In this document: in pieces, positions 770-43,949 of the stretch
Numbering within the stretch: the stretch's first letter is position 1
How the letters are laid out: every line of letters starts with the position of its first letter
NCBI RefSeq assembly: GCF_036346105.1
Contig: NZ_CP107811.1
Coordinates: 1 to 64,000, forward strand
Direction of reading: 5' to 3'
Length of the DNA stretch: 64,000 bases
Source: Streptomyces sp. NBC_00539
Lineage (GTDB): Bacteria; Actinomycetota; Actinomycetes; Streptomycetales; Streptomycetaceae
Notes under the pieces: model-generated
What the model saw: the letters and a program-made list of their open reading frames with translations, nothing else
Told to the model about the DNA's origin: nothing
Databases searched by the model: none
Made by a program: the position numbers and the translations under genes

Positions 770-1071
770 AACCCGATCATGCCAGCCCCACCCCGCAGGT
801 GTGATTCATTCTGATTCCCAGATTGAAACTGGCCTAGGGGGTATGTCGCGCTGAGGCCCAGCTCGCAGAGTGGGGTCGCCAGCCAGGGGCCATGGCGCCA
901 CTGACCAACCGGCCTGCACAGGCCGCCTGTTGTGCAGCGGAACTCATCTGGGATTCGGGACTGGTCTGGGGCCCTGCGCTCGGGTCGTCGGCTTGGGTTC
1001 CTGCAGGCCAGGGGGCAATAGCAGAGTTAAGGGGTGTGTTCGGGCTGGTCAGAGGGTGCTTCACAACATCG
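770..1071. other. No gene seen; flank of the Tn7-like element
   Basis: About 300 bases between the first gene and the left end of the Tn7-like transposon. I see no convincing reading frame on either strand. It holds scattered short repeats, including a CCTGCA/TGCAGG pair near 913-1010, that may be decayed transposase-binding sites. Confidence 0.4.
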
Positions 1072-1113
1072 TGTGGCTCGGTATATCTGCGCACTGCGCA
1101 GGTTGACCGAGCC
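1072..1113. repeat. Left-end transposase-binding-type sites
   Basis: TGTGGCTCGG at 1072 is followed by ATCTGCGCA and then CTGCGCAGGTTGACCG. The same words make up the right-end array at 6945-7347, in the orientation expected for inverted ends. I infer TnsB-type recognition sites; binding itself is not shown. Confidence 0.6.
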
Positions 1114-1177
1114 TTCTTCAATGGGCGCAAGGGCGGCTTGCCTTCGGGGGGCCACTGGGTTCGGTGGAGGGGGCGGG

Positions 1178-1918
1178 GTGCATCCGCGCCATGTAGACGT
1201 GCGGTTCGTCGGGCCGGACGGGGTCATGCTCCAGAGGCCGTGGCGGGCAGCCATCGGGGAGCTGCGCCTCATGGAGTGCGCGATGGTGCGTGGTTTCCCG
1301 CTGCGGCGGGGGCGGCGGTTGGCTCCGGGGTGGTGGTGGTCAGCGACCACCGGCCGTCTGGTGGGGTACGGGAGCGCGGCTATGCGGGACGCGGTCATGA
1401 TGCTGGATCAGAATCCGCAGGTGGCGGGCATGGTGAGCCGTCCCCTGGAGTTCGTGTGGGAGGAGCGGGGGCGGATCGTCACCCACGCCCCTGACCTGGC
1501 CGTGAGCATGGCTGACGGGGGCATTCGTCTTGTGGACTGCCCCGGGAGCGGCGGACCGTCCGCACGGCTCGTTGGCCGGGCGCGGGTGGTCGGGGCGTGT
1601 GCTCGGGACGCGGGCTGGGAGCACCTGTTCGCGGACACCGCGGATCCGGTCGTTCTGGCCAATGCGCGCTGGCTGTCGGTCTACCGGCATCCGCGGTGTT
1701 CGGTGACTATCCCCGCCTCCCGGCTGCGCGCAGCGTTCGCCAAGCCCACCACGTTGGGCGAGGGTGCACTCCGGCTCGGAGACCCGATCGCCACACTGCC
1801 GGCCGTCTACCACGGGCTCTGGAACGACCTGCTGAGCATGGCCTGGGACCGCCCCCTGAGCGAGGAGACCCCCGTGACCGCCGTGCCAACCGGTCGGCGG
1901 AAGGAGCTGGAGCAGTGA
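1178..1918 (+). CDS. TnsA-like transposase endonuclease subunit
   Basis: A 246-residue protein of the TnsA-like heteromeric transposase subunit family, which in Tn7-type elements cuts the 5' strands at the transposon ends beside the DDE subunit. The restriction-fold core spans roughly residues 10-170, with an ELRLMECAMV helix, a conserved WWWSATTGRLVGYGS stretch and a beta-rich segment (VSRPLEFVWEERGR). I chose GTG 1178 because GGAGGGGG lies just upstream; an ATG at 1121 lacks a site. The stop overlaps the transposase start as GTGA, so the two are translationally coupled. The family assignment rests on this overall pattern and on the operon order; I did not map the catalytic residues. Confidence 0.75.
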   Translation: MHPRHVDVRFVGPDGVMLQRPWRAAIGELRLMECAMVRGFPLRRGRRLAPGWWWSATTGRLVGYGSAAMRDAVMMLDQNPQVAGMVSRPLEFVWEERGRIVTHAPDLAVSMADGGIRLVDCPGSGGPSARLVGRARVVGACARDAGWEHLFADTADPVVLANARWLSVYRHPRCSVTIPASRLRAAFAKPTTLGEGALRLGDPIATLPAVYHGLWNDLLSMAWDRPLSEETPVTAVPTGRRKELEQ

Positions 1919-4002
1919 AACGTCCGGTAGACGTCGTGGAAGTCGGGGACCGGATCCGGTTCGACGGTGGCGTCCACGTCCTGGCCGGTCTGGACGGGCC
2001 GCGCTGCCGACTGGTCGCCGAGGAGGGCTCCAGAGTGCAGGTGCTGCTGCTCACCCAAGTACTCGGTGCGCAGGACTTCGCCGTCCTGGAACCCCGCCGG
2101 CCCGGGCGGTCGCGTGTTCCGGTACACGGCCCGCTGGACGGGCTTGAGCCCGCGGTCCGGGAGAAGGCCCTGGCCTGGGAGCGGCACATCCTGGAGGTCG
2201 AGACTGGGCACATCGGGCCCCACCGGGACTGGCCGTCTCGACCCGGGTACGACCCGGCCGTGTACGGGCTTGCCGAGCGCGAGGCGACCAAGGCCGCCGA
2301 GCTGACCGCGGCCGGAGAGCAGGTCAGCGTGGCCACCGTGCGCCGGATGCGAGCCCGCTACCGCGAGCAGGGGGTGTGGGGTCTCGTGGACGGTCGCCTG
2401 ACGCGGGAGCGGTCCGCGTTCGGGCGGGCCGATCCGCGGGTGGTGGCCGCGATCAAGCGGGCGCTGGAGGAGCAGCAGGGGCGTTCGACGGGGACGTTGA
2501 GCCGGCTGCGGCGCCAGGTGGGATGGTTACTCGAAGACGCCCACGGGCCCGGAACAGTGGCGGTGCCGCCGGTGGCCACGTTCAACCGGCTGGTGCGCTC
2601 CGTCGCCGAGCAGGAACAGCTCGCGCTGACAGCCGCCGGCCATCGGCGGCGGGCATCCCGGCCGGTGCCGGTGTTCACTCCGACGGTCGCGACGCTGCCT
2701 GGGGAACTGGTGATGATGGACAGCACCCTGCTGGACGTGATGGTCATGTGCGAGGACGGCCAGGCGCGGCGGCCGGAGCTGACGATGGCGGTGGACGTGG
2801 CAACCCGCAGCATCACCGCGGCCGTTCTGCGCCCGAAAGGCACCAAGGCAGTGGACGCGGCCGTGTTGCTGGCACAGACACTGGTGCCGCAGTCGATGCG
2901 GCCCGACTGGCCCGAGTACCTGTCCATGGCCGCTTCCATCATCCCCTACACGCGGCTCGCCTCCATCGACGCCCGCGTGCAGGGGGCCGCGGCCAGGCCG
3001 GTGATCCGGCCCTCAACCGTGGTCATCGACCAGGGCAAGGTGTTCGTCTCCCGCTGCTTCCTCGCCGCCGCCGAGCACCTGGGGATCTCGGTCCAGCCCT
3101 GCCCGCCCGCGTCCGGGTACGCCAAGGGGCATGTGGAGCGCGGCTTCGGGGCGATCGGCACGCTGTTCGCGCAGTACGTCGCCGGATACACCGGAAACCA
3201 CCTCGCGGCGCGCGGCAGCAGCGTGGAGGACGAGGCGTGCTGGACCCTGCCCCAGCTGCAGGACCTGCTGGACGAGTGGATCGTCTGCGGATGGCAGGAA
3301 CGCCGCCACGAGCGGCTACGGCACCCGCTCATGCCCCGCCTGACCCTCACCCCCAACGAGATGTGGGCCGCGCTCACCGGCATCGCCGGACACGTACCCG
3401 TCCCCCTGACAGGCGCCGACTGGACCGAACTGCTGCCATCCCGGCGCTGCGCGATCACAGACGAAGGCATCCGATTCGAACACCGCACCTACGACGGCCC
3501 CGCACTCAACGGACACCGGCACCCCTCCACCGCCGCGGACGGCAAATGGGAGGTCCACCACAACCCCTACGAGCCGTGGCGGTGCTGGGTCAGGCTCCCC
3601 GACGGCTGGGCGCAGGCCGACTGGATCCACCGAGGGTTGGTATCGCAGCCGTTCACCGACACCACCTGGCGGCACATCCGCAGCGTGGTGGCACGGCGCG
3701 CAGACCGGGCCGAACACGAAGAACACCTCGCCCGCCGCCTGGACGAACTCCTGCGCCGCGCCCACACAGGCGCCGGGGGCTCGAGCGCCGCCGGTATCGC
3801 CAGCGTCCCGGGCCAGCGGACAGGAGCCACGCGCACACGGCGACGGACTGCGGACACGGACCCGCCGAACGGCGCCGCCGAGCAGTTGCCGCCCGCGGAC
3901 GGGGACACCTGCATCACCTCCGACTCGGATGCCGCCGGCGCCGCGGTATCGGCCAGGGCGTGGAACATCTTCGACGCGCACCAGGAGGCACAGCAGTGGT
4001 GA
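1915..4002 (+). CDS. tnsB: Mu/TnsB-type DDE transposase of the Tn7-like element
   Basis: A 695-residue transposase that would cut 3' ends and join them to target DNA. An N-terminal part with helix-turn-helix features (residues about 100-170, including VSVATVRRMRARYREQG) precedes a retroviral-integrase-type core: first Asp in MMDSTLLD, second in VIDQGK, Glu in YAKGHVERGFG. A Mu-type beta barrel follows, then a low-complexity tail that in TnsB proteins contacts the ATPase. GTG 1915 overlaps the TnsA-like stop and follows AAGGAG. The reading frame is intact and its length fits TnsB/TniA proteins. All three catalytic residues are present, so the protein could still be active in trans. Confidence 0.9.
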   Translation: MKRPVDVVEVGDRIRFDGGVHVLAGLDGPRCRLVAEEGSRVQVLLLTQVLGAQDFAVLEPRRPGRSRVPVHGPLDGLEPAVREKALAWERHILEVETGHIGPHRDWPSRPGYDPAVYGLAEREATKAAELTAAGEQVSVATVRRMRARYREQGVWGLVDGRLTRERSAFGRADPRVVAAIKRALEEQQGRSTGTLSRLRRQVGWLLEDAHGPGTVAVPPVATFNRLVRSVAEQEQLALTAAGHRRRASRPVPVFTPTVATLPGELVMMDSTLLDVMVMCEDGQARRPELTMAVDVATRSITAAVLRPKGTKAVDAAVLLAQTLVPQSMRPDWPEYLSMAASIIPYTRLASIDARVQGAAARPVIRPSTVVIDQGKVFVSRCFLAAAEHLGISVQPCPPASGYAKGHVERGFGAIGTLFAQYVAGYTGNHLAARGSSVEDEACWTLPQLQDLLDEWIVCGWQERRHERLRHPLMPRLTLTPNEMWAALTGIAGHVPVPLTGADWTELLPSRRCAITDEGIRFEHRTYDGPALNGHRHPSTAADGKWEVHHNPYEPWRCWVRLPDGWAQADWIHRGLVSQPFTDTTWRHIRSVVARRADRAEHEEHLARRLDELLRRAHTGAGGSSAAGIASVPGQRTGATRTRRRTADTDPPNGAAEQLPPADGDTCITSDSDAAGAAVSARAWNIFDAHQEAQQW

Positions 4003-4996
4003 CGGACGCCGACCAAGAGACGCACGACGATCCGTACGCGTCACCAAGTACCTGGCGCGAGTGGACACGGTTCGTCGACACCGAACCACCATGTCTGCCC
4101 GGGACCGGCCCCTGGAACGCCGAGGAACGCCTGGACTACCACTCCCGATTCGTAATCCTGTCCACCCCCATCATGGCCAAGATCTCCCTCACCCTGCGCC
4201 GGCTGATGATCCTCAACCGGCGGCACAACGGCACCGCCCGGCGAGGGCTGCTGATCTCCGGGCCACCGACCACCGGAAAGACCACCACCCTGCAGCAGCT
4301 CGGCCGGTCCTTCCACCTCGCCGACCGCGCCCGCCACGGCGGCCTCGACGAGCGCCTGCCAGTGGTGTTCCTGTCCGTCCCACCGGCCGCGACCCCGAAG
4401 ATGCTCGTATCCGAACTGGCCCGATTCCTCGACCTGCCCATCACCACAAGCATGAACCAGGCCCGCATCACCGACATCGTCTGCGCCACCCTGCACCAGC
4501 TCGGCACCCGGCTCGTCCTGGTCGACGACGTCCACCTCCTCAACACCCGGACCCGCAACGGCGCCGAGACCTCCGACCAGATGAAACACCTCAGCGAACG
4601 CATCCCCGCGACGTTCGTCTACGCGGGCGTCGCCCTCGACGCCTCACCCCTGCTGACCGGAGTCCGCGGCACCCAGATCGCCGGCCGCTTCAAGACCGTC
4701 CGCAACCCTCCCCGCCACACGGCAGCCCCGCCCAGCGCACAGCCTGGGAAGGACTGATCCAGGGCATGGACCAGGCGCTGCGACTGGAAGCCCACCACAA
4801 GGGCGCACTGGTCCGGCACGCCCCCTATCTCCACCACCGCACCGGCGGCCGCATCGGAAGCTTGTCCGCCCTCGTACGGGAAGCAGCGATCGCCGCCATC
4901 CTCGACGGCACCGAGAAGATCACCAAGCAGCTCCTCAACGACATCGACCTCGACGAACTCGCCGAACACACCCCCGGCACCCAAAGGCGGCGCTGA
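3999..4996 (+). pseudogene. TniB/TnsC-type AAA ATPase, frameshifted
   Basis: The gene starts at GTG 3999, overlapping the tnsB stop and following AGGAGG. It encodes an AAA+ target-selection ATPase: Walker A GPPTTGKTT near residue 87 and Walker B RLVLVDDVH near residue 170. The frame stops at 4757, soon after GRFKTVRNP. The expected C-terminal domain (HGSPAQRTAWEGL onward to 4996) continues in another frame, and one extra base near 4710-4715 would restore continuity. This ATPase bridges transposase and target selector in Tn7-like systems, so the loss probably disables the element unless the truncated form works or a homologue complements. A sequencing error in this C-rich stretch is the alternative. 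Confidence 0.8.
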
Positions 4997-4997
4997 C

Positions 4998-6071
4998 ATG
5001 CCCCGAGCGCTGCCGGACCTGTCCCACCAGGCGCTGTTCCCCATCAGGCCCCTGGCCTTCGAAACCAACGCCTCATTCCTCGAACGCCTCGCCAGGGCGC
5101 ACCGCCTCACCACGACCGAGCTCCTCGACGGGCTGCGCATACGCCGCCCCAAGATCTCCCCAGACCGCCAACGGATCCACGGCCCTCACGCGCCCACCGA
5201 GCTTTACCTCAACGCCAGCGCACGCACTCGCGTCAGCCAGTACACCGGCATCCCCGAGGCTCACCTCGCTCACGCCCTGCCCTGCTGGCAAGGACACCAG
5301 GACCGCGGTCCCGCCACCGCGACACGTCCAGGCGGCACCATGCGCCCCTCCGACCTGCCGGCCGTCACCGGATGCCCTCACTGCACCATCGCCCGCACCG
5401 GGCAAACCCGCCCCGTCCTGCGCTACCTCCCCCACCAGCACCTCGTGTGCGGCCGGCACCGCACCTGGGCACTGGGCCCCCACACCCTTCAGGACATGAC
5501 CGTCCCCCACACCCACGTCCTCCTGCACAAGACTCCCGAGATCGTCCTCGCACACCACGCCCACCTGCGGCTGGTACGCCGCTGGGGACCAGACGCCGAC
5601 GAGGCCATCACCCAGGCAGCCGGGCTCACCGAACACTGGCGCCGCCACGCCCCCAAGGCCGAACGAATCTGGCCCGCCCGCGCCCGACTCATCGGCAACG
5701 GGAAGGACACCTCCATGTGGGAAGTCCTGGCCCGCGAAGCGATCACCTACCCCGAAACCATCACCCTGGCCGGGCTCCTCGTCCGGCGGCCCTCAGCCCG
5801 CTACCACCGCACCCGGCCCGGCCAACCCCACCCCTTCCACGAAGTCGTCGCCCGGAGTCTGAACCGCCGGTGGCTCCAAGACCCCACCTACTACCCCGAA
5901 GACCTCTCCCACTTCATCCGGCACACCCCACGCCACCCCGACCACCCCACCGCCTACCGCCACCACACCAAGCCCACCCCCGGCCACCGACCAGACACCA
6001 TCGAACTCACGCAACTCGGCTACCAACCACCCCCACCCCAGACCACCAGCCGCAGACAACGAGCCAGATGA
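4998..6071 (+). CDS. tniQ: TniQ family target-selection protein
   Basis: A 357-residue TniQ/TnsD-type protein. TniQ proteins choose the insertion target in Tn7-like and Tn5053-like transposons. The N-terminus (ETNASFLERLARAH) is the typical TniQ opening, and a zinc-finger cluster follows around residues 120-155: CPHC, then CGRH after a short linker. The C-terminus is rich in Pro, Arg and His. ATG 4998 begins one base after the stop of the restored ATPase frame, so it is the last gene of the transposition operon. It is too short for the extended DNA-binding region of TnsD, so site-specific attachment is not implied. Confidence 0.85.
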   Translation: MPRALPDLSHQALFPIRPLAFETNASFLERLARAHRLTTTELLDGLRIRRPKISPDRQRIHGPHAPTELYLNASARTRVSQYTGIPEAHLAHALPCWQGHQDRGPATATRPGGTMRPSDLPAVTGCPHCTIARTGQTRPVLRYLPHQHLVCGRHRTWALGPHTLQDMTVPHTHVLLHKTPEIVLAHHAHLRLVRRWGPDADEAITQAAGLTEHWRRHAPKAERIWPARARLIGNGKDTSMWEVLAREAITYPETITLAGLLVRRPSARYHRTRPGQPHPFHEVVARSLNRRWLQDPTYYPEDLSHFIRHTPRHPDHPTAYRHHTKPTPGHRPDTIELTQLGYQPPPPQTTSRRQRAR

Positions 6072-9805: not shown

Positions 9806-9905
9806 TGTGTAGGTTCTCACTTCTCGTGTCGGAATCTCACGGCCGATGCCGGATCTAGTTCGGATCCGACATCCGTCGTGAGATTCGCAGGTCGACATGA
9901 GGCCC
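9806..9905. repeat. Left-end site cluster of the cargo-only element
   Basis: TGTGTAGGTTCTCAC, CTCGTGTCGGAATCTCAC and CGTGAGATTCGCAGGTCGAC occur within 100 bases. The last is nearly repeated at the other end (CGTGAGACTCCGCAGGTCAG near 11865). Confidence 0.55.
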
Positions 9906-9996
9906 TTGTGTGGTGCGCAGCTTCCGGGTGGACCCCGACAGAAGAGTGCTGCAAGGAATTCGACTTGCCATGCCGTGTGACGGCGCCGGAAGCGGC

Positions 9997-10890
9997 TCAG
10001 ATGACCAAGACTCGGCGCCCGCGCGTGTGACCGGCGTGGCTGTCGATGTGGGCCGCCGCGGCCTCGGCTAGCGAGTATGACTTCTCGACCGGGATGTGGA
10101 GCTGGCCCCGCGAGATCAGGTCGACGGCCTCGGCGAGCGCCGCCGACACGCTTCCGGCCACGCCCGAGAACCGGACACCGAACTCCGGCGCACCGAGATC
10201 GGCGATGGAGACGACCTTCTCCGGACTCCCGGTCAGCTCGACCAGCTCGCGGATCACGCCCGAACCAGCCAGATCGAGAGCCGCGTCGACGTCGCCGAGC
10301 CGCCGAACCCGCTCGCCCCAGCCATCGCCGTACGTCGTGGCGACGGCACCAAGCCTGCCCAGATACTCCTGGTTCGCGGCACCGGCCGTGCCGATCACCG
10401 TGATGCCGCGGTCGCGGGCGATCTGCAGCACCGCCGATCCGACTCCCCCGGACGCGCCGCTGACCAGGAGCGTCTGCCCGGGCCGCACACCGACCTCGTG
10501 GATGACGCGCAGCGCGGTCTCCACCACGGAGGGGTACCCGGCCGCCTCCTCGAACGTCAGCCCCTCGGGCATCCGGGCCCAGGCCGACAGTACGGCGAAC
10601 TCGGCGTAAGTGCTGGAGCCCTCGCCGAACACCCGATCACCGACCTCGACCCCTACGACTCCCTCGCCTACCTCGTCCACCACCCCGGCGGCGTCCAGCC
10701 CGACCCCGGAGGGCAACTCGATCGGATGGGCCCCCAGGACCTGGCCTTCACGAATCCTCCAGTCGACGGGATTCACGCCCGCCGCCCGCACGGCGATGCG
10801 TATCCGGCCGGAGCCCGCGTGGGGCTCCTCGGCATCAACGAGTTGCAGAACGTCCGGACCGCCGAACTCGGCGAAGCTCACTTTCTTCAT
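9997..10890 (-). CDS. NADP-dependent quinone oxidoreductase-type protein
   Basis: A 297-residue medium-chain reductase. The N-terminal GroES-like fold has PDVLQLVDAEEPHAGSG and AGVNPVDWRIREGQ. The nucleotide-binding Rossmann domain has VSGASGGVGSAVLQIARDRG near residue 140. Zinc ligands of the alcohol dehydrogenase branch are absent, which fits the quinone oxidoreductase subgroup that reduces quinones or alpha,beta-unsaturated carbonyls with NADPH. The end (HTRGRRVLVI) is typical. It is divergent from a TetR gene 70 bases away, and both sit inside an element lacking a transposase. The TetR protein probably represses it until a reactive carbonyl or quinone ligand appears. Confidence 0.88.
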   Translation of the reverse strand: MKKVSFAEFGGPDVLQLVDAEEPHAGSGRIRIAVRAAGVNPVDWRIREGQVLGAHPIELPSGVGLDAAGVVDEVGEGVVGVEVGDRVFGEGSSTYAEFAVLSAWARMPEGLTFEEAAGYPSVVETALRVIHEVGVRPGQTLLVSGASGGVGSAVLQIARDRGITVIGTAGAANQEYLGRLGAVATTYGDGWGERVRRLGDVDAALDLAGSGVIRELVELTGSPEKVVSIADLGAPEFGVRFSGVAGSVSAALAEAVDLISRGQLHIPVEKSYSLAEAAAAHIDSHAGHTRGRRVLVI

Positions 10891-10907
10891 GCCGCCGAAC
10901 GTAACAC

Positions 10908-10933
10908 TAACCGATAGCTTTTCATAACGGTTA
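10908..10933. promoter_or_regulatory. Candidate TetR operator between divergent genes
   Basis: TAACCG at 10908-10913 and its reverse complement CGGTTA at 10928-10933 are separated by 14 AT-rich bases, midway between the oxidoreductase and TetR starts. Spacing and location suit a TetR dimer site that controls both promoters. Confidence 0.55.
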
Positions 10934-10960
10934 CTCTTTCATACCTGCTAGCCTACGGCC

Positions 10961-11581
10961 ATGACCGTGCAGTCCGGACGCCGTGAGCGCAAGAAGGCCG
11001 CGACCCGCCAGAAGATCGCCGACACCGCGCTGCGGCTCTTCCTGAAACGCGGTTACGACGCGGTGGGCATCCGTGACGTGGCCGCCGAGGCCGACGTGGC
11101 CGTCACCACGCTCTTCTCCCACTTCGCCTCGAAAGAGGCCCTGGTGTTCGAGCAGGACGAGGACTTCGAGCAGCGCCTCACGCAGGCGGTCACCGGCCGG
11201 GCGCCGCACGAGCCGCTCATCCCCGCCCTGCGCCGCGAAATCCTGGCCCTGGTGCGGCACTGCACCGCGGACAGCGCCGCCCCGATCTGGCGCATGATCG
11301 ACGAGTCTCCCGCCCTGCGGAAGTACGACGAGTCGCTCCGCCTACGCCACGCGGACGCCCTGGCCACGGCCATCGCCGCCGATCCTGACCTGACCCGGAG
11401 CGAAACCGCCGCCCGCACCATCGCGAGGTTCGTGATCGACGCCTACTCGCTGGCCCGCGAAGCGGCCGACCCGCAGGCCGCCCTGGACGAGATCTTCCAA
11501 ATGATCGAGGCGGCGTGGAAGGTCACCTGCCCGTCTGCAAGCGGTCACCCGGGTTCCGATGGGCCGCGGCCGCGGGTGTGA
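10961..11581 (+). CDS. TetR family transcriptional regulator
   Basis: A 206-residue TetR regulator. The DNA-binding domain occupies residues 8-60: RERKKAATRQKIADTALRLF, then GIRDVAAEADVAVTTLFSHF with recognition helix ADVAVTTLFSHFASKEAL. The C-terminal domain (residues 65-195) is helical and lacks an obvious ligand signature, resembling the TetR C-terminal class that controls divergent oxidoreductases in Streptomyces. ATG 10961 follows an AT-rich spacer without a strong Shine-Dalgarno, so it may be leaderless or weakly translated. It probably represses itself and the oxidoreductase through the inverted repeat at 10908-10933. Confidence 0.9.
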   Translation: MTVQSGRRERKKAATRQKIADTALRLFLKRGYDAVGIRDVAAEADVAVTTLFSHFASKEALVFEQDEDFEQRLTQAVTGRAPHEPLIPALRREILALVRHCTADSAAPIWRMIDESPALRKYDESLRLRHADALATAIAADPDLTRSETAARTIARFVIDAYSLAREAADPQAALDEIFQMIEAAWKVTCPSASGHPGSDGPRPRV

Positions 11582-11714
11582 GACGGTGTCGCTTACCACG
11601 GCGAGGTACGAAGTTGGCGTCGCCGCGGTAAGCGACGAGAACTGCTCGAACTCGTTATTGGCCTATGACGCGGTGGTCGCCACAAGGGGCGCCGAGGAAA
11701 CGATACGAAGCCGA

Positions 11715-12015
11715 GACACCGAGCGTCCGACACGACGTGAGACAGCGGACAGACCCGCTGCTTGCGGGACCGATGTCCGACACGAGCCGCGAGACCCTAC
11801 AAGCTGTGTCGGGTCTTACGAACCGTGTCCTAGTCTCACCGCCAATGTCCTACCGGTGTCCGCTCGTGAGACTCCGCAGGTCAGCGGATTGCAGTTCGCG
11901 GCCGTTCCGAGGATTGGACACGATCGTGAGACTGAGCGGTTGGACACGGCGTGAGACACCGCAAGAAGTCCCAGGTCACAGGGTCGCCGTAGGACACGAG
12001 CGGCGAGATCCCACA
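11715..12015. repeat. Right-end site cluster of the cargo-only element
   Basis: At least seven copies of GGACACGNNCGTGAGAC-type sites in both orientations, for example CCGACACGACGTGAGAC near 11730, GGACACGATCGTGAGAC near 11918 and TGGACACGGCGTGAGAC near 11941. The array ends in GAGATCCCACA at 12015. Spacing is irregular, 20-60 bases. Confidence 0.65.
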
Positions 12016-20907: not shown

Positions 20908-21935
20908 TCAGCCGGCCGCAGCGGCCGGACCCTCCCCGAACCGCGGGACGTCATCCACGCCCACGTCCAGGCGCAGCCGCCGGAAGCGGAGCGGGTGGCG
21001 CCGCACGCCGCCCCGGTCCATGGCGCGGTCGGCGCTGATCTCGGCCACCAGGTCGGGGCGGACCAGGCGCACGTTAAGGACGTCACGGGACCCCCAGGTC
21101 GCGGCGAACGTGACACCCTCCCACGGGTGTCCTGGGTCGGCGGCCGTCAGGTGCTCGGCGACCAGGCGGGCCGCCTCCGTGCGCAGGGGCACGGTGCGGC
21201 CGACCGCGCGCAGCCGGGCCGTGTGGTCGTGGCGGCCCAGGACGAGGAGCTGGGGGCGGGTGAGGGTGCCGGTGATGGCGCCGATGATCGCCTCGGTGGT
21301 GTCCCGTCGTCTGACCTTGGTCCACGCCCCCCTGTGACCGGGCGTGTAGCGGCTGGTCTGGGGCTTGACCACGATGCCTTCGACGCCGGACACGTCCGTC
21401 CACGAGTCGAGCCATTCGCGGGCCTTGGCCGGGTCCGTGGTCATCGGACACAGGGTCCATGGGGCCGTCAGGGCGTGGTCGGCGAACAGGCCTCCAGGCG
21501 GGCGCGGCGCTCCACATACGGCAGGTGCAAAAGCTCTTGGCCGTCAGTCTGCAAGACGTCGAACACCACGAAAAAGGCCGGCATCCTCGCGGCCAGCGCG
21601 GGAGCGCTGCGGGTGCGGGCCGCGGCCCGGCGCTGCAACCCCTCGAACGACAGGGCGCCAGCCTCGGCGTCCCACACGAGCAATTCGCCGTCCAGGACCA
21701 GGCCGGCGGGCAGCTGCTCGGCGGCCGCGACGAGATCCGGGAACGCGCCCTGGACCAAGGCGCCGCGGCGGGTCTGGAGCAGCACCCGACCACCCGGCCC
21801 GACCGGGGTGAACACCAGCGCCCGGTACCCGTCGAACTTCTGCTCATACGCCACCCCCGAAGCGAGCGGACGCACGGGCGGCATCACCTCGGAGGCCTGC
21901 GCCAACATCGGCTCCACCGGCGGACGCAACACCAT
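20908..21935 (-). pseudogene. ATP-dependent DNA ligase, one-base frameshift
   Basis: Near-identical to the intact ligase at 42774-43805. It starts at ATG 21935 (MVLRPPVEPMLAQASEV) with the adenylation site EQKFDGYR and motif III-IV region, then breaks at RRARLEA. Comparison with the intact copy shows GAACAGGCC here against GAACAGAGCC there, a one-base deletion near 21487. The remainder resumes in another frame with SWTDVSGVEGIVVKPQTSRY and the OB-fold. The enzyme would seal nicks using ATP if intact. Confidence 0.8.
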
Positions 21936-22043
21936 CCCCAGAGCCTCCCTCGTCCTCGACGCCGGCCCCAGAGCCTGACCCGCACCCATGCCTGCGGCCC
22001 GACGAAGGGCGCCGGACGGCGGAACCCGACGAACCCGAGCCGC

Positions 22044-22513
22044 TGTGACTGAGCGCGCCAGTTGACCGGTCTGGCCAACTGGCGCGCTCAGTCACAGGTC
22101 GCGGTGCAGGGAGAAGCGTTAGATGACCTGCACCTCCTCCGCCTGCATGCCCTTCTGCCCGCGGGTAACAATGAACGAGACTTGCTGGCCTTCCTTCAGG
22201 GACTTGAATCCGTCCGACTGAATGGCCTTGAAGTGCACGAAGAGGCCATCGCCACTCTGCGGCGTGATGAAGCCGAAGCCCTTCTCGTCGTTGAACCACT
22301 TCACGGTTCCGGTCTGCCGATCGCTCATGTCCACCCCAGGGAATCCTGACGGCCTTGTGCCGTCGAACTGATCTTGGTGCACAAGCGTGGAGCGCAAACA
22401 CAAGAGCGAAGATCGGCAGATTCCCGCAGGGCGATCACGGGCGAAAAGCAATCGGGCGGAGACAGAACGGGCCAACTGAACTGCTCACAGGCCAACTGGC
22501 GCGCTCAGTCACA
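22044..22513. mobile_element. 470-bp cargo-only cassette with TGT...ACA ends and 5-bp flank repeat
   Basis: The left tip TGTGACTGAGCGCGCCAG at 22044 and the right tip, its reverse complement ending at 22513, form 24-bp inverted ends with one mismatch. The base quintet GCCGC lies directly outside both (22039-22043 and 22514-22518) in the same orientation. Tn7-type and Tn5053-type transposons share TGT...ACA ends, multiple internal sites and 5-bp duplications. Extra sites occur at 22073-22096 and 22470-22489 (GGCCAACTG, then GCTCA). Only a cold-shock gene is inside. A caveat is that the outer bases CGA also mirror each other, so a longer imperfect inverted repeat is an alternative to a true target duplication. 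Confidence 0.65.
22119..22328 (-). CDS. Cold-shock domain protein
   Basis: A 69-residue cold-shock protein. The RNA-binding motifs are KGFGFITP (RNP1) and LFVHF (RNP2), after the opening [10 protein letters not shown]. It is full length for the CspA family, which binds single-stranded nucleic acid and melts RNA structure. ATG 22328 is behind GGGGTGG. Aromatic residues for base stacking are all present, and the end EEVQVI is normal. It is the sole cargo of the 470-bp cassette; about 140 bases between its start and the right-end sites must contain its promoter and leader. Confidence 0.93.
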
Positions 22514-22518
22514 GCCGC

Positions 22519-42773: not shown

Positions 42774-43805
42774 TCAGCCTGCGGTTGTGCCCGGGGCCGC
42801 CGCGAACCGAGGAACGTCCCCGGCGATGAGGTCCAGGCGCAGCCGTTTGAAGCGGAGCGGGTGGCGCCATACGCCGCCCCGGTCGATCGGGTGGTCGGCG
42901 CTGATCTCGGCCACCAGCTCGGGGCGGACCAGGCGCACGTCCAGGACGTCGCGGCTCCCCCATGTCGCGGCGAACGGGACGCCCTCCCACGGGTGGCCGG
43001 GGCCGGCGGCCGTCAGGTGCTCGGCGACCAGGCGGGCCGCCTCCGTGCGCAGCGGGACGGTGCGGCCGACCGCACGCAGCCGGCCCGTGTGGTCGTGGCG
43101 GCCCAGGATCAGGAGCTGCGTGCGGGTGAGGGTGCCGGTGATGGCGCCGATGATCGCCTCGGTGGTGTCCCGGCGGCGGACCTTGGTCCACGCCTCTCTG
43201 TGGCCCGGCATGTAGCGGCTGGTCTGGGGCTTGACCACGATGCCTTCGACGCCGGACACATCCGTCCACGACTGAAGCCACTCCCGGCCCTGGGCCGGGT
43301 CCGTGGTCATCGGACACAGCGTCCACGGGGCCGTCAGGGCGTGGTCGGCGAACAGAGCCTCAAGGCGGGCGCGGCGCTCCACGTAGGGCAGGTCGAGTAG
43401 CTCCCGGCCGTCGAGCTGCAAGACGCCGAACGCCACGAAAAAGGCCGGCAGCCTCTTGGCCAGCGCGGGAGCGCCACGTGGGTGGGCGGCGGCCCGACGC
43501 TGCAACCCCTCGAACGAAAGGGCGCCGGCCCCGGCGTCCCACACGAGGAGTTCGCCGTCCAGGACCAGGCCGGCGGGGAGCTGCGCCTCGGCGGCCGCGA
43601 CGAGATCGGGGAACGCGCCCTGGACCGGGGCGCCGCGGCGGGTCTGGAGCAGCACCCCCTCACCCGGCCCGGCCGGGGTGAACACCAGCACCCGGTACCC
43701 GTCGTACTTCTGCTCATACGCCACCTTCGAGGTGAGCGGACGCACAGGCGGGATCACCTCGGCGGCCTGCGCCAGCATCGGCTCCACCGGCGGCCTGAGC
43801 ACCAC
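42774..43805 (-). CDS. ATP-dependent DNA ligase
   Basis: The intact copy, 343 residues. Motif I with the adenylated Lys is YEQKYDGYRVLVF near residue 28. Motif III/IIIa lies around LVLDGELLVWDAGAGALSFE and AFFVAFGVLQLDGRELLD. Motif IV is VEGIVVKPQTSRY. Motif V is AWTKVRRRDT. The OB domain contains LLILGRHDHTGRLRAVGRTV. GTG 43805 follows GAGGAGG. The enzyme would seal nicks with ATP, separate from the NAD-dependent housekeeping ligase. Size fits the LigC or LigD-ligase group of bacterial end-joining and repair systems, but no Ku or polymerase gene is nearby. Three broken copies exist in the window. Confidence 0.92.
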   Translation of the reverse strand: MVLRPPVEPMLAQAAEVIPPVRPLTSKVAYEQKYDGYRVLVFTPAGPGEGVLLQTRRGAPVQGAFPDLVAAAEAQLPAGLVLDGELLVWDAGAGALSFEGLQRRAAAHPRGAPALAKRLPAFFVAFGVLQLDGRELLDLPYVERRARLEALFADHALTAPWTLCPMTTDPAQGREWLQSWTDVSGVEGIVVKPQTSRYMPGHREAWTKVRRRDTTEAIIGAITGTLTRTQLLILGRHDHTGRLRAVGRTVPLRTEAARLVAEHLTAAGPGHPWEGVPFAATWGSRDVLDVRLVRPELVAEISADHPIDRGGVWRHPLRFKRLRLDLIAGDVPRFAAAPGTTAG

Positions 43806-43949
43806 GTCCCTACACCTCCTCGCCCTCACCCCGCCCCTCCAATGGTCAGCCCCTCCATGAAAGACCGGGCACTGCCCGGCCGACACCCCGGCCGACCACC
43901 CGGGTGCGGCTGTGCAGACCTCCCGCTGCTGCGTCGGCGCAGCGCTCTG

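Follow-up and report, generated by a model that had tools for sequence, protein, structure and literature searches.

Structure of the cold-shock cassette

How does a single gene for a small cold-shock protein come to lie between transposon-like ends that enclose no transposase gene? This question is raised by a 470-bp cassette at positions 22044-22513 in Streptomyces sp. NBC_00539, within the window, the 64,000-nucleotide stretch of DNA that was analysed as a whole. Our comparisons argue that the cassette is a non-autonomous Tn7-like transposon, probably moved in trans, with the cold-shock gene (csp) as its only cargo; we give this reading a probability of about 0.87. The initial annotation had placed here a 470-bp element with GCCGC on both flanks and a lone cold-shock gene, and each of these points was confirmed. 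Its proposal of TnsB-type transposition is supported as well, since the same family of ends bounds elements that encode TnsA, TnsB, TnsC and TniQ and show 5-bp duplications. The features of the locus are as follows.

22039..22043, no strand: left copy of the target duplication GCCGC, by direct reading
22044..22067, plus strand: left terminal 24 bp, TGTGACTGAGCGCGCCAGTTGACC, a match to the end family
22073..22096, minus strand: inverted second copy 5 bp inward of the left end, forming a near-perfect hairpin with 22044-22067
22119..22328, minus strand: csp, encoding a 69-aa cold-shock protein of the CspA/CspE type, the only cargo (Pfam CSD, 1.3e-28)
22470..22489, minus strand: second direct site of 20 bp inside the right end, TGTGAGCAGTTCAGTTGGCC, resembling the tandem sites of other family ends
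22490..22513, minus strand: right terminal 24 bp, TGTGACTGAGCGCGCCAGTTGGCC, by direct reading
22514..22518, no strand: right copy of the target duplication GCCGC, by direct reading

The cassette is thus bounded by TGTGACTGAGCGCGCCAGTTGACC at one side and by the reverse complement of TGTGACTGAGCGCGCCAGTTGGCC at the other. These agree at 23 of 24 positions, with an A/G difference at position 22, so that the inverted 24-bp ends of the initial annotation are present but not quite identical. Tn7-like ends combine TGT/ACA termini with several direct repeats resembling TnsB sites, and this arrangement was found at the right end (24 bp followed by 20 bp in direct orientation); the left end differs in having an inverted second site instead of a direct one. 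The 5-bp duplication of such ends reads GCCGC in the window and GGAGA around a second copy in Streptomyces sp. ISL-87. A scan of the window for TGT/ACA pairs at a spacing of 100-3000 bp, with identical 5-bp flanking sequences and an end identity of at least 15/20, returned two pairs, versus none in 30 control windows shuffled base by base within 3-kb blocks.

The inverted repeat runs on into the flanks, where seven of eight additional bases pair, because the direct 5-bp duplication sits in an odd palindrome, CGA-GCCGC-TCG; the target before insertion would have been CGAGCCGCTCG. A longer true inverted repeat in place of a duplication, which had been named as a possible refutation, was rejected because the sole mismatch falls at the centre of the palindrome, where a true repeat would pair. 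This mismatch speaks for a duplication.

The end family across the genus

At up to three mismatches, the 24-bp end occurs in 117 of 393 genus genomes, including that of the host, and a reversed-pattern control occurs in 3 of 393. Among the end matches listed, the convergent pairs no more than 10 kb apart on one contig number 16, and thus at least 16; all were analysed. Twelve show a perfect 5-bp duplication, two match at four of five positions and two (L054 and L056, the latter holding further nested ends) show no match. When ends were paired wrongly as a control, 3 of 240 combinations gave a duplication, all through the common sequences GTTGG or GCCAC. When the ends of 16 other elements were compared with those of the window cassette, most had the same 24-bp terminus followed by at least one direct site of about 20 bp. 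Hairpin ends recur in L054 and L058, and an S. katrae stretch combines a hairpin end and a degraded second end with other cargo (a TetR gene and a SnoaL-like gene, both named by reading).

The 16 pairs span 578-7925 bp, and the window cassette is shorter than all of them. The earlier suggestion that, if mobile, it would be among the smallest gene-bearing elements of its type agrees with its length relative to these pairs. A tblastn search with the four Tns proteins each of L060, L127 and L129 (12 queries) found a full TnsA-TnsB-TnsC-TniQ set in one pair (L060), tnsA remains in two, a tniQ tail in one and no tns gene in 12. A Pfam scan of pairs other than L052, L055 and L056 identified varied cargo; the scanned reading frames of L053 and L058 gave no Pfam match.

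L049: methyltransferase
L050: esterase
L054: NmrA-like protein
L057: aldo/keto reductase
L059: EF-Tu, with L051 as a 90% relative
L061: inositol monophosphatase
L062: DDE transposase of another kind
L063: PhyH-like protein and AraC-type regulator

The two EF-Tu cassettes (L051:501-2125, 1625 bp, duplication CCGGC; L059:501-2151, 1651 bp, duplication CCGCC) are 90% identical over 1495 bp and lie between unrelated flanks.

Relatives that encode Tns proteins

Three elements with both family ends and a duplication each encode TnsA, TnsB, TnsC and TniQ. L060 (568-8492, 7925 bp) is flanked by GCCAC. In this element, Pfam recognised the TnsA N-terminal domain at 3e-5 (just under the cut-off), TniB at 6e-7 and TniQ at 2e-17; its TnsB has no Pfam match and aligns with TnsB proteins of solved structure over 99 residues (7e-8). 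L127, on a Kitasatospora purpeofusca plasmid, measures 7253 bp, is flanked by GTGGC and has both ends one mismatch off the consensus. L129, on a plasmid of Streptomyces NBC_01217, measures 6458 bp, is flanked by CGTGT and has both ends diverged by six mismatches.

Two further elements resemble L060-like elements that have suffered deletions: L050 retains the ends, the esterase gene and a tniQ tail, and L061 retains an end and a broken tnsA. Two blocks of L061 (1237 and 394 bp) are 99% identical to a relative in the same genome (the second pair of L060), and the two elements occupy different places with different flanks. At L060:8469-8521 and L051:2102-2154, two ends meet around a single 5-bp sequence identical to the target duplication, and two ends abut likewise at L064:1051-1103, as if a new element had landed on the edge of an older one.

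A second copy of the cassette in Streptomyces sp. ISL-87

An exact-end scan of genome contigs returned four stretches, two of them from Streptomyces sp. ISL-87. One ISL-87 contig breaks off within the right portion of a csp cassette and another begins within the left portion, and GGAGA was found at both outer flanks. The encoded protein is 98.6% identical to that of the window, and the two DNA parts are 92% and 94.5% identical. The initial annotation had looked for copies at different loci with different 5-bp duplications, and this pair provides them.

Judging by their genes, the ISL-87 flanks look like plasmid backbone: a helicase is encoded on one side, and ParA, ParB and a region resembling restriction endonucleases on the other. 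Three plasmids (pSVL1 and one each from S. goshikiensis and S. zaomyceticus) match the helicase-side flank until 11-13 bp before the ISL-87 insertion. The other flank is matched in pSVL1 (from the insertion point) and in the S. goshikiensis plasmid (from 25 bp after it), and about 8.5 kb and 2.7 kb, respectively, lie between the matched flanks. All three plasmids show a family-type end with 4-5 mismatches at the equivalent spot; of the three, just the S. zaomyceticus plasmid shows a recognisable second end, with a different 5-bp flank. Since pSVL1 has a second copy of the endonuclease-side flank, the region has been rearranged there. A composite pre-insertion site assembled from the S. zaomyceticus plasmid and pSVL1 would have the length of the ISL-87 site, the insertion points being separated by 2 bp. 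These comparisons suggest a plasmid hot spot, yet the duplications and contexts of the family are diverse, which bears on the question of target choice by TniQ/TnsD.

Empty sites

Empty sites in relatives, which the initial annotation had named as support, were found for the sister cassettes L049 and L059 but not for the window insertion, neither in 61 nor in 393 genomes, its own included. The joined flanks of L049 were matched in 18 of 120 genomes, the query genome counted; four of the five alignments inspected cross the junction without gaps and one has 9 gap positions in 51. The uninterrupted L059 site occurs in three other genomes of the 120, with 1-2 gap positions near the junction. For L061, only its own genome matched among the 120.

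A block with a gene resembling that for an ATP-dependent ligase (a name given by reading) is repeated at window positions 21401-22004 and 43267-43837, in the host at C2:418015-418516 and in genome G078 on C373 and C367. The two G078 copies match the left flank of the cassette until 6-7 bases from it (1-2 bp before the duplication), and beyond the match they diverge from the window and from each other, stopping at the same base +/-1. A paralogue on host contig C2 stops about 40 bp before the cassette. These copies were not counted as an empty site of the window insertion because their breakpoints are possibly the edge of the ligase block and not of the cassette.

Proposed movement in trans and alternative explanations

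An autonomous Tn7-like transposon has its own TnsA, TnsB, TnsC and TniQ, and the cassette holds only csp; movement would therefore need a supply in trans. TnsA-TnsB from a co-resident element, for which a plasmid is a plausible carrier, would bind the ends, and the cassette would be cut out and pasted at a target selected by TnsC and TniQ. The cassette may have originated from a larger element that lost its tns genes and retained both ends and the cargo gene.

Several results weigh against this proposal. The 12 Tns queries found no match inside the window cassette, which has no transposase gene, and the empty site of the insertion is missing, as is a perfect duplication in 4 of the 16 pairs. 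The host genome lacks an L060-type TnsB; the TnsB-like genes that it does have are all telomeric, close to the ends of contigs C1 and C2, and 33% identical. Seven plasmid tns loci were picked from 480 records with a TnsB match and scanned for ends at up to six mismatches, and only L127 and L129 proved to be bounded on both sides, with a duplication. In L125, L126 and (weakly) L130, the scan found one end, in front of tnsA, and no second one; L128 gave just a weak match at another place and L131 no match. The continuity of the ISL-87 cassette follows from its flanks and duplication, as it is split over two contigs, and pSVL1 and the S. goshikiensis plasmid each show one recognised end at the hot spot. 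Finally, an end search around the five other close csp copies (up to six mismatches, within 10-12 kb) found both ends only in ISL-87, the other four lacking one or both. The copy at 6.69 Mb keeps the hairpin and has no convergent second end within 10 kb; the copy at 88 kb keeps the inner right site and lacks the terminal 24-mers. The G078 copy has a shortened hairpin and an IS110-like reading frame nearby (read from sequence), and in G054 the hairpin has diverged. The earlier picture of cold-shock genes spreading as single units gains from the second csp cassette with GGAGA and falls short in three respects: the absent transposase, the missing empty site of this insertion and the four close copies without full ends.

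The missing empty site and the lack of a close host TnsB led us to prefer a trans-moved cassette over an autonomous Tn7-like element, and they make a stranded remnant a serious alternative. Under this explanation the cassette was once mobile and is now copied only by recombination between plasmids and chromosome arms. On the nature of the cassette it coincides with our proposal; the difference concerns present mobility. The absence of a close transposase in the host and the loss of one or both ends from four of five other csp copies favour it; the intact state of both ends, inner sites and duplication in the window, together with the identical terminal 24-mers and clean duplication in ISL-87, argue the other way, and we consider it rather unlikely.

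The repeats could instead be a regulatory hairpin or terminator of csp, partly duplicated by chance and immobile. The left-end hairpin lies 22 bp past the csp stop codon, its RNA folds at -57.5 kcal/mol (z -9.3), and a hairpin follows csp in the window, in ISL-87, in the 6.69-Mb copy and, shortened or diverged, in G078 and G054. However, in many genomes the same 24-bp end, with 5-bp duplications, flanks genes that have nothing to do with csp, and it bounds tns-bearing elements; the two loci of the csp cassette also differ in their duplications. Together with the empty sites of sister cassettes, this largely refutes the immobile terminator, which strikes us as very improbable; a terminator role besides mobility is possible, and the hairpin end may double as transposon end and csp terminator. 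Slightly less probable again is a mini-element of another family with 5-bp duplications (Tn5053/Tn402 type, with TniA and without TnsA). TGT/ACA ends, a 5-bp duplication and TniQ are common to both kinds, whereas in tns-bearing elements bounded by these ends the TnsB gene is preceded by one for a TnsA-like protein.

Beyond the trans-moved csp cassette itself, we tentatively suggest, at slightly less than even odds, that Streptomyces holds a pool of small Tn7-ended cassettes, often of 1-3 genes and including copies of core genes, csp and EF-Tu among them. A few TnsABC-TniQ elements, acting in trans, would carry these cassettes between linear plasmids and the chromosome arms. Such a pool would parallel integron cassettes on a Tn7 basis, its members using common hot spots and stacking in tandem at a shared 5-bp junction.

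Relation to known elements

The cassette shares TGT/ACA ends, repeats resembling TnsB sites and a 5-bp duplication with Tn7-like transposons, and TnsA-TnsB-TnsC-TniQ are common to these and its tns-bearing relatives. Miniature inverted-repeat transposable elements (MITEs) are short, with inverted ends and a target duplication, and have neither transposase nor gene. The cassette resembles them in shortness, inverted ends, duplication and lack of a transposase; unlike these non-coding elements, it carries the complete gene for a 69-aa CSD protein. Mobile insertion cassettes (MICs) likewise have transposon ends around a passenger gene, no transposase and presumed movement in trans. They use the ends of insertion sequences with a single transposase, whereas the ends of the present cassette are Tn7-like with multiple sites, and TnsABC and TniQ would be required. 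Tn4811 of Streptomyces lividans is a further Streptomyces transposable element with cargo genes. A survey that starts from transposase genes, as published ones generally do, will miss cassettes that carry none.

MICs of insertion-sequence families have been described (PMC5444012). A survey of Tn7-like transposons gives median lengths of 14-29 kb, compared with 470 bp and no tns genes here, and describes an Actinobacteria-dominated clade without an experimentally characterised member (Benler 2021, PMC8649781). A 6.7-kb Streptomyces rimosus segment bears transposase genes (PMC9045324), and the cassette has none. Titles and abstract openings, with few subscription journals among them, contained no description of tns-less Tn7-like gene cassettes in Streptomyces.

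If such cassettes move in trans, single genes, even those for translation and cold shock, would pass between the chromosome arms and linear plasmids of Streptomyces by an exchange route detectable through the cassette ends. At 470 bp, the csp cassette is also a compact natural substrate for a transposition assay.

The cargo protein and other features of the window

Of the 13 csp matches in the host, two besides the cassette gene reach 96% and 90% identity to it, and the remaining ten are at most 63% identical. The cassette protein fits CspE/CspA models best (CspE at 1.6e-31 and 108.3 bits, under the curated cut-off of 120) and is strongly unlike the ten other host proteins; an old horizontal transfer of csp is possible. 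Viral contigs gave no exact match to a near-consensus end. A search of plasmid DNA matched 512 records, none over more than 80% of the query. The best 20 of these cover mostly the csp coding part (top match about 77%), and some of the remaining 492 reach 90-99% over shorter stretches.

A second candidate cassette lies at window positions 9808-11801, with TGTAGG ends (16/20), AGCTG on both sides, and a zinc-type alcohol dehydrogenase/quinone reductase gene and a TetR gene as cargo. The chromosome end holds a Tn7-like operon at 1034-6071. It comprises a frame at 1034-1918, upstream, with no Pfam match; a TnsB-like gene at 1915-4002 (Pfam rve 8.5e-5, below the cut-off); an ATPase identified by its Walker motifs, whose reading frame seems to shift near 4740; and a TniQ gene at 4998-6071 (1.4e-5, just below the cut-off). 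The TnsB region of this operon recurs close to both ends of C1 and C2.
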